From positions 434,001 through 498,000 of the forward strand of contig NZ_CP024963.1 of assembly GCF_002803985.1 (NCBI RefSeq): a stretch of DNA of 64,000 nucleotides, given 5' to 3'. Every line of letters starts with the position of its first letter. Within the stretch, counting starts at the first letter, position 1. The notes beneath the pieces were generated by a model that was not told the DNA's origin, searched no databases, and saw only the letters and a program-made list of their open reading frames with translations. Source of the stretch: Williamsoniiplasma luminosum. GTDB taxonomy: Bacteria; Bacillota_I; Bacilli_A; Mycoplasmatales; Mycoplasmataceae. Below, one piece after another: positions 11,417-63,504 of the stretch. The translations under genes and the position numbers were made by a program.

Positions 11417-12108
11417 TGATGACGTTAGAAGAATTTTTACAACAATATGACATCAAAATTAAGAATCGACATTTATATGATGAAGCACTAACTCATAATT
11501 CTTTTTCCAATGAAAAACACTTGAAATACACTTATCAAAGGTTAGAATTTCTTGGTGATTCATTGCTGCAAATGTATGTTAGTCTTTATTTTTTTCGCAA
11601 TCACCCAAAATTAAAAGAAGGTGTTTTGACTAAATCTCGATCAAACATTGTTCGCGAAGAATCGTTGGCAATGATTGCTAGGCAAATCAATCTTGGTAAT
11701 TACATAAGATTGGGTCAAGGAGAACTTAATTCAAAAGGGTATGATAAAGATTCGATTTTATCAGATGTTTTTGAATCAATTACTGCAGCAATTTATTTAG
11801 ATCAAGGTGAAGAAAAAACTTTAAATTGATTAAATAAAACGCTTTTCAAAATCATGAATAATGACCAACTTTTAGAAAAAACTAAAGATTATAAATCAGA
11901 ATTACAAGAGTTATTACAAGCAAACAAAAGAACAGATTTAAAATATATTGTTGATTTAGAAAACCATATGGATGCTGAATCAAAAATTGAATATACAATT
12001 TCGGTTTATTTAGAAGACCAAAAACTCGGAACAGGAATTGGATTTTCAAAACAGCAAGCTGAACAAAGAGCTGCCAAAGATTCACTTTCAAAATTGAAAA
12101 TCAGATAA
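11416..12108 (+). CDS. rnc: Ribonuclease III
   Basis: Double-strand-specific endonuclease that processes rRNA precursors and mRNA. 230 aa, with TGA at 11827 as Trp. The catalytic signature RLEFLGDSLLQM lies near residue 43 and the second acidic site DVFESITAAIYLD near 116-128. A double-stranded RNA-binding domain fills about residues 158-228, ending GFSKQQAEQRAAKDSLSKL. The start overlaps the plsX stop. Its likely substrates include the long 16S and 23S flanking stems seen in the rRNA operon of this window. Confidence 0.95.
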
Positions 12109-28891: not shown

Positions 28892-30205
28892 ATGAAAATT
28901 AAAATTATTGGAGCTGGATTAGCTGGATGTGAAGCTGCATATCAATTAGCAGAACATGGATTTAAAGTTGAACTTTATGAATCTAAAACTATGCAAAAGA
29001 ATCCAATTCAAAAATTGGATTCTTTTGCCGAATTAGTTTGCTCGAATACATTAAGATCTAAATCCTTAAAAAATGCTGTTGGAATTTTAAAAGCAGAAAT
29101 GCAAATGTTTAATTCTTTAATTATTGAAGCAGCCTATCAAACTTGTATTCCAAGTGATGATGCTTTAGCTGTTGATCGCGTTAAATTTTCAGATTATGTG
29201 ACTGACAAAATCCAAAATCACCCAAACATTGAAGTTATTTACAAAGAAGTGGATGCAATTGATGATGTTAATGACATTACTTTAATTACAACCGGACCTT
29301 TAACAAGTGAAAAAATGAAAAGTGAAATTGAACGTTTAATTGGCAAACAAAAACTCTTTTATCTAGATGCATCAGCCCCCATTATTGCCAAAGATAGTAT
29401 TGATTTTAGTTATGTTTATCAAGCTTCAAGACATAATCAAGATCAAGGAGATTACATTTGTATTCCTTTAAATGAAGCTGAATTTGATGCTTTTGTTAAA
29501 CAGTTAAAGCAAGCTGAAACTGTTCAAACAAAAGACTTTGAAAAAGAAATTTATTTTAAAGGTTGTCAACCAATTGAGGTGATGGCCAAAGAAAGTAAAA
29601 AGATTTTATTGCATGGGCCAATGTCACCCAATAACCTTTTAAAACCAGATCAAACTCAACCATATGCAGTTGTTCAATTAAGACAAGATGATGCAATTGA
29701 TACACTTTATAATTTTGTTGGTTTTCAAACCAATTTAAAATGACCAGAACAATTAAGAGTCTTATCACAACTACCAGGAATGGGGGATATGAAAATTGTT
29801 AGGTACGGAGTGATGCATAAAAATTATTATATTAATTCACCTAAAATTTTAAATAATAAACTTCAAGTAATGCGCAGAAAAAATGTGTATTTCGCTGGTC
29901 AAATCACTGGTGTTGAAGGTTATGTTGAATCAAGTATGAGCGGAATTATTGCTAGCTTAGGAATTATTGCTTCGCTGACAAACCAAAAATTACCTAAATT
30001 TCCTTCAACAACAGTGATGGGAGCATTACATAATTATGTGACGAATGAAAAAATTAAACATTTAAAACCGATGAAAGCAAATTTAGGAATTATGCAAAAA
30101 GCTTTTGATGAAGGAAATGGAGAAAGTTATTTTTCCAAATCAAAAATGGAGTTGGAAAATTATTTAAATTCAATAAAAGGAATTATTGAATTTAAAAATA
30201 AATAA
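28892..30205 (+). CDS. trmFO: tRNA m5U54 methyltransferase TrmFO (folate/FAD-dependent)
   Basis: Methylates U54 of the tRNA T-loop using methylene-THF and FAD. 437 aa, standard length, TGA at 29741 as Trp. The FAD-binding [10 protein letters not shown] is at residues 7-16. [13 protein letters not shown] near 49 holds a conserved catalytic-region cysteine, [11 protein letters not shown]-like ([11 protein letters not shown]) near 224, HGPMSPNNL near 245, and [17 protein letters not shown] near 331 is the C-terminal FAD site. Start confirmed by the glycine motif position. Folate cofactor metabolism is represented here by fthC at 42134. Leaderless promoter. Confidence 0.95.
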
Positions 30206-40813: not shown

Positions 40814-40857
40814 AAAAAATGAAGCTTATAAGTAAATGCTTATAAGCTTCATTTTTT
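40814..40857. terminator. Bidirectional terminator before convergent pgi
   Basis: Perfect 19-bp stem (40814-40832 with 40839-40857) around a six-base loop, A-rich and T-rich ends, between convergent genes. Confidence 0.9.
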
Positions 40858-50848: not shown

Positions 50849-51622
50849 ATGCAAAAGTTATCATCATCAACAAATTACAAAATTAAAGAAATCTTAAAAT
50901 TAAAAGAAAAACATGTGCGTTTAGAACGCCAACAATTTCTTGTTGAAGGGCAACACTTAGTTTTAGAAGCACTAAAAAAAGGCATTGTGTTAACCATTTT
51001 AGGAACTGAGTTAGCTTTACAACATAATGTCGTTCAAAAACATTTACATACAGTTGACGAAGTTTATGAAATTAGTGCTAATGTGGCCCAAAAACTAAGT
51101 GATGTTGTGACTAGTCAACATATTTTTGCAGTTTGTTCAATGAAAGAACAAAAAATTGATTATGAACATAATATTTTGCTTTTAGACCAACTCCAAGATC
51201 CAGGTAATTTAGGAACTTTAATTCGTAGCGCTGCCAGTTTTGATTTTAAAACGATCATTGGTTCAGCCAACGCTGTGAGTTTTTACAATGATAAAGTTTT
51301 ACGTGCAACGCAAGGGAATTTCTTTCAAGTTAATTTGATTAATGAATATTTAATTAAAACCATTAATGATCTTAAACAAGCTGGATATGTGATTTTAGGC
51401 ACTAACTTACATCAAAATTCGAAGAAACTGGAAAAAGTTCGATTCAATGACAAAGACAAGTACGCTTTAATTATTGGCAATGAAGCCAAGGGAATTTCTT
51501 TTGAATTATTAGACATGATTGATATCAACATTAATGTGGAAATGGATGATCAAGTTGAGTCATTAAATGCTGCAATTGCTGGTTCAATTATTATGCATAA
51601 AATTTATGTTGATAATGCTTAG
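50849..51622 (+). CDS. SpoU-family rRNA/tRNA 2'-O-ribose methyltransferase
   Basis: SPOUT methyltransferase of 257 aa, of the TrmH/RlmB/YsgA type. The N-terminal substrate-binding domain (about 1-100) resembles L30e (EGQHLVLEALKKG). The SAM-binding trefoil knot motifs are DQLQDPGNLGTLIRSAASFD near residue 113 (motif 1), LIIGNEAKGIS near 205 (motif 2) and VESLNAAIAGSIIMH near 237 (motif 3). The catalytic Arg and Glu are in motif 1 and 2. The exact target (G2251 of 23S or other) cannot be set. No TGA codon. Linked with dUTPase, 31 bases apart. Confidence 0.9.
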   Translation: MQKLSSSTNYKIKEILKLKEKHVRLERQQFLVEGQHLVLEALKKGIVLTILGTELALQHNVVQKHLHTVDEVYEISANVAQKLSDVVTSQHIFAVCSMKEQKIDYEHNILLLDQLQDPGNLGTLIRSAASFDFKTIIGSANAVSFYNDKVLRATQGNFFQVNLINEYLIKTINDLKQAGYVILGTNLHQNSKKLEKVRFNDKDKYALIIGNEAKGISFELLDMIDININVEMDDQVESLNAAIAGSIIMHKIYVDNA

Positions 51623-51641: not shown

Positions 51642-51650
51642 TGTTATAAT
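51642..51650 (+). promoter_or_regulatory. Extended -10 promoter of gapN
   Basis: TGTTATAAT, perfect extended -10, puts the transcript start near 51657, about 12 bases before a long hairpin. Confidence 0.6.
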
Positions 51651-51668
51651 TAAATCTATAGGAAAAGA

Positions 51669-51709
51669 TTGCTTTTTATTTTGAACAACATGTTCAAAAT
51701 AAAAAGCAA
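51669..51709 (+). promoter_or_regulatory. 19-bp perfect hairpin in the gapN leader
   Basis: 51669-51687 and 51691-51709 are exact reverse complements around ACA. The hairpin ends five bases before the GAGGTG ribosome site and has no T-run, so it is not a terminator. Candidate protein-binding operator or mRNA control element. Confidence 0.65.
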
Positions 51710-51724
51710 CAATTGAGGTGTGTG

Positions 51725-53140
51725 ATGTACAAAATGAAAGTTTTAATTAATGGAGAGATGATTCAAACTGATGAAGTGGTGGAAATTTTAAATCCAACAA
51801 CTTTTGAAGTTGCTGGAGTTGTGCCAGCTTTAAAAGCAAATGATATTAATAATGCTTATTTAGCAGCCAGAAATGCGCAAAAAAACTGAGAAAATCTGCA
51901 AATTCTTGAAAGAATTAAAATTCTAAACCGTTGAAGAGATTTAATTTTAGCAAATAAAGAAGAATTGGCCACAATTATTATGACTGAAGTTGCCAAAGCT
52001 TATAAAGATGCTTTAAGTGAAGTTGAACGAACTGTTGAATATATGGATTATACCTTCCAAGAAGCGATGCGTCTTGAACCGTTGGCTTTAACTGGGGCCG
52101 GAATGGGTGTTAAAAACAAATACGGAATTTTTGAACGTGTAGCTAAAGGTGTGGGTCTAGCAATTTCGCCTTTTAATTACCCAATTAACTTAGCGCTTTC
52201 AAAAATTGCCCCTGCTTTAGTGATGGGAAATACCTTAGTTTTTAAACCAGCCACAGCTGGAAGTTTAATTGGAGCTAAATTAAGTGAATTAGCGCATCAA
52301 GCACAAATTCCGGCTGGAGTTTTAAATGTTGTAACTGGAAGAGGAAGAGACATTGGTGATGATTTAACCAATAATGTCCAATTAAACTTTATTTCTTTTA
52401 CTGGATCAACTGAAATTGGCCACCGAATTTTAAAAAATGCTTCAACAAAAGACATTGTTTTAGAATTAGGAGGAAAAGACCCAGCAATTGTTTTAGATGA
52501 TCTAAAACTTGAAATGTATGCCAAAGAAATTATTAGTGGGGCTTTTTCATATTCTGGACAACGCTGTACAGCGATTAAAAGAGTGATTACAACTGATGCG
52601 ATAGCTGACAAATTAGTTTCAATTTTGAAAGACAAAATTGAAAAACTAAAAGTTGGACTGCCAATGGATAATGCTGATATTACCCCATTAATTGATCAAG
52701 GATCAGCTGATTTTGTTTTAAAACTAATTGATGACGCTAAAACTAAAGGTGCTCAAATTGTAACTGGTGACAAACACGAGAAAAACTTAATCTGACCAAC
52801 TTTAATTGATCATGTCACAACTAAAATGGATTTAGCATGAACAGAACCCTTTGGACCAGTCCTACCCATTATTAGAATTAATGATGTGGAAGAAATGATC
52901 AAGATTGCCAATGCATCAAATTATGGACTTCAAGCCTCAATTTATTGTCAAGATTTAAATCAAGCCTTGCATGTAGCTAAACGCATCGAAACCGGAACTG
53001 TCAATATTAATGGAAAATCACAACGTGGACCAGACTCATTTCCGTTTATTGGAATTAAAGATTCTGGAGTTGGAACCCAAGGAATTGGTGAAACACTTTT
53101 AAGCGTCACACGCTTAAAAGGAATTGTCATTAATTATTAA
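51725..53140 (+). CDS. gapN: Non-phosphorylating glyceraldehyde-3-phosphate dehydrogenase (GapN)
   Basis: Oxidises glyceraldehyde 3-phosphate to 3-phosphoglycerate with NADP, giving NADPH and bypassing an ATP step. 471 aa, aldehyde dehydrogenase fold. AISPFNYPINLAL near residue 147 has the oxyanion Asn. ELGGKDPAIVL with general base E247 and FSYSGQRCTAIKR with catalytic C281 follow. EPFGPVLPI near 375 and GTVNINGKSQRGPDSFPFIG near 422 are family elements, the latter with substrate-binding RGPD typical of GapN. Several TGA Trp. GAGGTG precedes ATG 51725. Adjacent to an unusual leader hairpin. Confidence 0.92.
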
Positions 53141-54936: not shown

Positions 54937-55125
54937 CTCTTTGTTGCTCATTGAGGAAGCCAAAAAATCGCAAGAAAAAAGGCCTAAAATCAGCACAAAT
55001 GATCTTTGAAAACTAAATAGAACAATTATTGTACAAACTTGTTAATTCAATTAAATTGAGTAAATAAAAAACAAATACTTTTATACAAAAATAAACAAAC
55101 AGTCAGAATCAAAACACATTAATTT

Positions 55126-56650
<1,525 letters not shown>

Positions 56651-56934
56651 ATGGAGATAATTTATTAAAACACATAGTAGTGTCTATGTGTGACTGTTTG
56701 GTTCTATTTAGTTTTCAGAGGTTATTTTTATAATCTCTGAAAAAATCAGAATTGTTCTTTGAAAACTGAATATTAGATGAAATATAATTTTCTTACTTGT
56801 TATTAGTAATAATAACAATTAAAAAACAAATTTTTGATCATTGCTGTAAGGCAATGATCTTAAAGACATCAGTAATAAACTAAAATTACAAAATTAAAAA
56901 TAAATATAATATATTTATATGCCAAATAGATTTT
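56651..56934 (+). other. 16S-23S spacer without tRNA
   Basis: 284 bases. No tRNA gene is present. It contains the 3' arm of the 16S processing stem and the 5' arm (56750-56772) of the 23S stem, which pairs perfectly over 23 bp with 59886-59908 downstream of 23S. The GTTCTTTGAAAACT box is shared with the leader. Confidence 0.8.
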
Positions 56935-59838
<2,904 letters not shown>

Positions 59839-59920
59839 TAAAAATCTATTTAACAACGCTTATAAATATAAATATTTCAATCTAGTATTCAGTTTTCAAA
59901 GAACAATTCACAAAACCCTG

Positions 59921-60029
59921 ATCTGGTGTTTATGGCGTAGAGGTCACACCTGTTCCCATACCGAACACAGAAGTTAAGCTCTACTGCGGCGATGATATTG
60001 CATTGTGAGAAAGTAGCACGACGCCAGTT
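59921..60029 (+). rRNA. rrf: 5S ribosomal RNA
   Basis: CTGGTGTTTATGGCGTAGAG at the 5' end pairs with the terminal ACGCCAG, and TTCCCATACCGAACACAGAA and GTTAAGCTCTAC are the standard loops B and C. About 108 nt, typical of Mollicutes. Ends estimated. Confidence 0.94.
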
Positions 60030-62964: not shown

Positions 62965-63051
62965 AGAAAATATTGGAAAAAAAATATCCGTTTAATAAAA
63001 AAAAGCATAATGTAAACAAGGGCAATTAATTTTGTTCTTGCTAGGAGATGT

Positions 63052-63504
63052 ATGCAAATTTTTAAAGAGGAGTTAATTCAATTTAATAAAAAAGCAACTG
63101 ATTGAAAAAATGCTATCAAGATTGCTTCAAAACCATTATTAAAAAACGGTTATATTAATGAAAATTTTGTTCCGAATTTAATATCGGAAACAAAGAGATT
63201 GGGTCCATATTATATTTTGGCCCCAAATTTAGCATTAGGTCATATTTCGCCAGATGGTTCTTGTTTGAAAGAAGGACTTAGTTTATTGTTTTTAGAACAG
63301 GTTGTGCCATTTAAGAATGATGGAACAGGTGATGTTAAGTTTTTATTTATACTAAGCACCACTGATCAAGATTCACACTTGAACTTATTGAAAGAATTGG
63401 CTTTAGCATTTGGTAATAGTGATTTTTATAAAGAATTCTATAATGTTAAAAATTATGCTGACATTAAGAAATTAGTGGAAAAACATCTTAAAGTTAAAAA
63501 ATAA
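63052..63504 (+). CDS. ulaC: PTS EIIA component, ascorbate/UlaC type
   Basis: Phosphocarrier of a sugar phosphotransferase system (EIIA type 2, fructose/mannitol/ascorbate fold). 150 aa. APNLALGHISPDGSC near residue 60 holds the active-site His; the family pattern is AP-x-x-x-x-P/G-H. LLFLEQVVPFKND near 82 and VKFLFILSTTDQDSHLNLLKELA near 99 (in parts) complete the domain. TGA at 63103 is Trp. AGGAGATG lies five to eleven bases before ATG 63052. It is 15 bases upstream of the EIIC gene and divergent from the RpiR-family gene. Confidence 0.85.

Follow-up and report, generated by a model that had tools for sequence, protein, structure and literature searches.

A perfect 19-bp stem-loop in the gapN leader of Williamsoniiplasma luminosum, probably a 5'-proximal mRNA element

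The leader of gapN in Williamsoniiplasma luminosum, a small insect-associated bacterium, carries a real, non-random stem of 19 perfect base pairs, the structure of which is partly conserved in the nearest relatives. Judging from the sequence, it is probably a 5'-proximal mRNA stem-loop with a stabilising effect. The genome of W. luminosum consists of one contig of 1,031,560 bases, and the window analysed here is a stretch of 64,000 nucleotides of it, to which all positions refer unless stated otherwise.

Layout and rarity of the gapN leader stem

The stem lies between two genes on the + strand and is arranged with its surroundings as follows.

50849-51622, + strand: upstream gene, SpoU/TrmH-type RNA methyltransferase (named by eye), ending 46 bases 5' of the stem
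51642-51650, + strand: extended -10 promoter element of gapN, TGTTATAAT, i.e. TG, one base and TATAAT (51645-51650)
51657-51668, + strand: predicted unpaired 5' end of the gapN mRNA, placed from the -10 position and unpaired in the folds
51669-51687, + strand: 5' arm of the stem, TTGCTTTTTATTTTGAACA, U-rich
51688-51690, + strand: loop, ACA
51691-51709, + strand: 3' arm of the stem, TGTTCAAAATAAAAAGCAA, A-rich
51715-51720, + strand: GAGGTG ribosome binding site of gapN, outside the stem and separated from it by the five-base spacer CAATT
51725-53140, + strand: gapN, 471 aa (code 4), homologue of the NADP-dependent non-phosphorylating glyceraldehyde-3-phosphate dehydrogenase

The best three PDB matches of the gapN product (3prl, 9dla and 1euh; E 1.2e-146 to 1.7e-143) are solved GAPN enzymes; no NCBIfam model scored over its cut-off among the 25 listed of 42 matching. 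A protein end resembling that of the upstream gene also precedes gapN in several relatives (by eye). About 2 kb 3' of gapN lie the 16S-23S-5S rRNA genes (55125-60029).

The two arms are 100% complementary as read from the sequence. A sequence-only reading of this DNA had described the perfect 19-bp hairpin with its ACA loop next to the gapN ribosome site, placing it about 12 bases from the predicted transcript start and five bases from GAGGTG, and the analysis confirmed each of these points. We infer that the gapN mRNA likely starts at about 51657, given the TATAAT box with TG one base upstream. As a promoter scan of the leader revealed no pair of sigma-70 hexamers on the + strand, the start is placed by the -10 box alone. 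Promoters of Mesoplasma florum have a strong TAWAAT box and a -35 region that is degenerate, according to a passage of PMC10884336.

For independent bases at the given base composition, the expected number of perfect repeats with arms of at least 19 bp and loops of 3-10 is 3e-5 per 64 kb and 5e-4 per genome. For these loop lengths the gapN arms are the longest perfect ones in the window, equalled by those of a terminator-like repeat of 19 bp at 40814-40857. Arm polarity was surveyed in 464 kb of the W. luminosum genome, comprising the window and 400 kb of further stretches. Six perfect repeats of this kind (arms of at least 19 bp, loops 3-10) were detected, and the gapN stem alone lacks terminator-like polarity: in the other five the 5' arm has an A-rich base, as in terminators, and four of these are located where a mechanically predicted gene ends. 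Among the 52 perfect repeats of at least 13 bp outside predicted genes, the base of the 5' arm is A-rich in 42 and T-rich in seven, with three ties; the gapN stem is the longest of the seven. It thus resembles intrinsic terminators in its long perfect stem and short loop but differs from them in its reversed arm polarity and in the lack of a T-run on the + strand. The earlier view that it is not a terminator is shared for this strand, since neither the sequence nor a terminator scan revealed a T-run 3' of the stem.

An RNA fold of 51657-51760 (leader and 36 bases of the gene) reached -21.7 kcal/mol (z -3.7), and the leader alone -21.1 kcal/mol (z -6.8 and -7.1 in two shuffle runs). The ribosome site is open in the centroid structure; the minimum-energy fold of 51657-51760 places a weak extra helix over AATTGAGG. 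Two further classes of element were considered and rejected. An Rfam scan of the whole 64-kb window returned three rRNA matches and one tRNA match and none at the gapN leader with at least the gathering score, which speaks against a riboswitch or known leader RNA. The second class was a repeat or mobile element; exact matches to a 15-letter piece of the arm are confined to the two arms, and six other places match it with one mismatch.

Stems in the gapN leaders of relatives

The gene gapN is present in all 60 family genomes, W. luminosum included. Since the proteins among the best 80 matches listed in a contig scan were at most 50% identical, close relatives were taken from a separate genome search. 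The region upstream of gapN was examined in 46 of the 60 genomes, the remaining 14 belonging to genus g11; of the six g11 genomes read, five have gapN at most a few dozen bases behind the upstream gene (by eye). Seven of the eight genomes of g1 (the genus of W. luminosum itself) and g9 have a -10 box with a stem between it and the ribosome site. No leader of this kind was recognised in the eighth, G003 of the own genus, which was therefore left out of the leader tests, and the stem was found in none of the nine genomes of g3 and g4.

The seven leaders are given below with the number of pairs, the distance from the -10 box to the stem start, the z score of the leader fold, and p for stem length against shuffles with G-U allowed. 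The folded span extends from four bases after the -10 box to nine bases before the start codon.

W. luminosum: 19 pairs, all Watson-Crick; 18 bases; z -6.8; p 0/300
G002: 10 pairs, one G-U and 9 Watson-Crick; 10 bases; z -3.1; p 0.05
G001: 13 pairs, two G-U; 5-7 bases; z -4.1; p 0.01
G011: 10 pairs, two G-U; 5-7 bases; z -2.2; p 0.01
G018: 10 pairs, three G-U; 5-7 bases; z -2.4; p 0.01
G024: 10 pairs, three G-U; 5-7 bases; z -2.3; p 0.01
G029: 10 pairs, one C-A mismatch; 5-7 bases; z -1.1; p 0.7

In the five genomes with a distance of 5-7 bases the stem would thus lie near the expected start, all starts being predicted. By eye no stem sequence common to the g1 and g9 leaders was seen, except between G011 and G018, whose leaders are near-copies and not independent; their stems differ by one base, with the pair retained as U-G (by eye). 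As the arms do not align in a MAFFT alignment of the seven leaders, no covariation table was obtained and pair changes were read by eye.

Because g9 had been added to g1 only once the stems were seen, a gapN tree of 30 proteins was built afterwards. It pairs W. luminosum with G002 (100/99), with the other g1 and g9 rows mixed beside them in no resolved order, and sets apart g4 (100/100) and a group of 17 rows with g3 and g11 (86/88); g1 and g9 together were not recovered as one clade.

A z score of -2 or lower was obtained for six of the seven gapN leaders, whose -10 boxes were picked by hand with the stems already known, compared to 24 of 207 background leaders, a few of which are possibly counted twice due to an overlap of about 4 kb between the G002 stretches L163 and L164 and to near-copies among the W. 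luminosum genes. This background comprises 218 rule-picked leaders from five genomes minus nine terminator-like and two gapN leaders. When repeated with new shuffles, the test gave five of seven, with G018 at -1.99. By energy alone, none of the 207 background leaders folds at least as well as that of W. luminosum and two fold as well as that of G001, the count being 21-41 for the other relatives. With a fixed window from -70 to -9, z scores of -2 or lower were found in two of the eight g1 and g9 genomes (W. luminosum and G001) and at five of all 46 loci, the other three being two of g12, with a terminator-like stem upstream of TATAAT, and one of g7. Furthermore, scores in this range occur in 24 of 183 background leaders, 26 of 183 antisense strands and 19 of 366 ORF pieces (counts derived from fractions). 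Since the rates of background leaders and antisense strands are alike, the gapN leaders appear as the extreme of a mild, strand-blind trend.

The sequence-only reading had proposed a search of related gapN leaders for pairing and had regarded a missing conservation of the stem or of compensatory changes as evidence against its interpretation. Such a lack is not clearly seen: a stem is at the same place in seven of the eight g1 and g9 genomes, and what falls short are the statistics, which are mixed, and the covariation table. Structural conservation of the gapN leader stem in the relatives is therefore supported, not proved.

Stems in other leaders of the W. luminosum genome were also noticed. 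A row of three paralogous genes encoding large surface-type proteins (by eye; stretch L121, 7825-14934, - strand, genome 107825-114934) has near-identical short leaders, in which a TATTAT box is followed after four bases by a stem TTATGGGA...TCCCAT. A PTS-type transporter gene (by eye; L135, 10691-12733, - strand) has an 8-pair leader stem with one G-U four bases after TATAAT; by eye, seven pairs of different sequence make up the stem of its counterpart in the closest relative G002 (L175), while G001 has a 10-pair repeat next to a -10 box that is ambiguous, G024 has no stem, and G011 and G018 give no clear picture. In the window, the gene at 63052-63504 has a stem CAAGGGCAA/TTGTTCTTG (63012-63051) ahead of its ribosome site and after a CATAAT box; matches to its protein were found in only three of nine relatives. 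A perfect 14-bp repeat with a T-rich 5' arm just 5' of a TATAAT box (L126, 14493-14527) may suit an operator better than the gapN stem does.

RNA element, DNA operator or neutral repeat

The sequence-only reading had left the choice between an operator and a translation control element. The relatives shift this choice towards an RNA element. The stems of G001, G011, G018 and G024 have 10-13 pairs if G-U is allowed and 4-5 if A-C is allowed instead, while G029 behaves in the opposite way (10 pairs with A-C, 6 with G-U). The antisense strands of G011, G018 and G024 gave z scores of -0.8, 0.7 and -0.1, respectively, and that of G001 gave -1.9 compared to -3.9 for the sense strand; antisense z is lower than sense in G029 (-2.7 vs -1.1), in G002 (-8.3 vs -3.0) and slightly in W. 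luminosum. On balance, the mRNA strand seems to be the strand whose pairing is kept, by four to one among the stems that contain a non-Watson-Crick position. As the stems of four of the six relatives need G-U on the mRNA strand, this points to RNA rather than to a DNA operator. Translation control by masking of the ribosome site was not seen, the stem stopping five bases short of GAGGTG.

For an operator, a dimeric regulator would have to bind this palindrome on the 3' side of the start and thereby stop RNA polymerase, which we regard as unlikely. The symmetry is perfect in W. luminosum (19) and G002 (9 Watson-Crick pairs), the inner TTGAACA-ACA-TGTTCAA is a plausible half-site pair, and this inner pattern occurs with up to two mismatches 65 times per strand in the genome compared to 21 times for the reversed control, an excess over the control. 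However, no half-site common to the species was seen by eye in the leaders of the six relatives, and the imperfect symmetry in four of them is accounted for by G-U. Four copies were placed, namely the exact one and three of the seven with one mismatch: the sole other exact TTGAACANNNTGTTCAA in the genome falls inside a predicted gene, as does the copy at genome position 8823, and those at 29833 and 227390 are in open frames. Palindromic operators of Mollicutes (HrcA/CIRCE, and the predictions in an excerpt of PMC5138195) are likewise inverted repeats near a promoter; the gapN repeat differs from them in these placements, in lacking a sequence shared across species and in that both of its arms mix G and C, whereas the factor sites predicted for Spiroplasma melliferum and Mycoplasma gallisepticum in that excerpt avoid G and C in the same repeat.

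It also seems improbable that a weak, functionless stem was lengthened and perfected by template switching in an AT-rich genome. Such a neutral quasi-palindrome would fit the W. luminosum arms being about twice as long as those of G002, the stem sequences all differing save those of G011 and G018, the failure of most relatives in the fixed-window fold test and the high density of perfect inverted repeats in Mycoplasmatota described in a part of PMC13155455, but neither the occurrence of stems at the same place in seven of the eight g1 and g9 genomes nor the G-U bias toward the mRNA strand in four relatives. An RNase III processing site yielding a trimmed gapN mRNA is very unlikely: the 19 perfect pairs make up about two helical turns and W. 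luminosum has an RNase III gene, but the 10-13 pairs of the relatives' stems are short for ordinary cleavage by this enzyme. Barely plausible is a terminator for antisense transcription running from gapN toward the upstream gene. A lax scan did find one terminator-like - strand site at the leader, compared to 0.1 expected from shuffles, with 20 pairs (G-T allowed) and the tail CTTTTCCTAT; this tail is short, however, the polarity of the arms is opposite to that of 42 of the 52 long repeats outside genes (the gapN stem being among the 52), and both neighbouring genes are on the + strand, so that there is no known - strand transcript to end.

Proposed mechanism and significance

Most likely the gapN stem belongs to a known class of 5' mRNA elements, among which its length is extreme. 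Stem-loops acting as 5' stabilisers have reportedly been found in the aprE leader of Bacillus subtilis, in papA and at 5' termini in Escherichia coli. Like these, the gapN leader is short and has a single stem-loop between the start, as predicted from the -10 box, and an open ribosome site downstream; Bacillus-type decay enzymes are encoded in W. luminosum as well. It differs in that its stem lies about 12 bases from the predicted 5' end, has 19 AU-rich pairs and is known from sequence. Among the titles listed in a non-exhaustive literature search, none concerned this leader.

Transcription of gapN would start about 12 bases ahead of the inverted repeat, which would act in the mRNA, where the leader would fold as a single long stem. 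This 5'-proximal stem may hinder decay from the 5' end, either by pyrophosphate removal and subsequently RNase J or by RNase Y landing on the leader, and the gapN mRNA would survive longer with the ribosome site just below the stem remaining open. We consider the chances of this whole explanation, a leader stem that hinders decay and makes the gapN mRNA last longer, to be about even. With the ribosome site outside the stem, we regard protection as likelier than a block of translation. Two genes of the RNase J family and genes for RNase Y and RNase III (the latter at 11437-12096 in the window) scored over the family cut-offs, and the decay machinery looks Bacillus-like by these predicted proteins. 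In B. subtilis, mRNA is stabilised by a hairpin located at its 5' end or close to it, such a hairpin can protect long downstream regions, and RppH needs two or three unpaired 5' bases, as stated in a section of PMC3997798. The approximately 12 unpaired bases predicted in W. luminosum exceed this number, so that blocking of the end would be weak and protection would depend on stalling RNase J or excluding RNase Y.

The role in NADPH supply that the sequence-only reading had suggested is conjecture. We consider it rather doubtful that the stem represents a gapN leader RNA specific to Williamsoniiplasma and g9, in which pairing and position are selected with the sequence fully turned over and which sets the NADPH supply in bacteria with few transcription factors. 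If this is not true, the stem would be a caution that AT-rich genomes easily give rise to long hairpins. If it is true, gapN would provide a compact case of a redox gene that is controlled post-transcriptionally, in near-minimal bacteria with few transcription factors, and its leader would be a usable 5' element for expression in Mollicutes.
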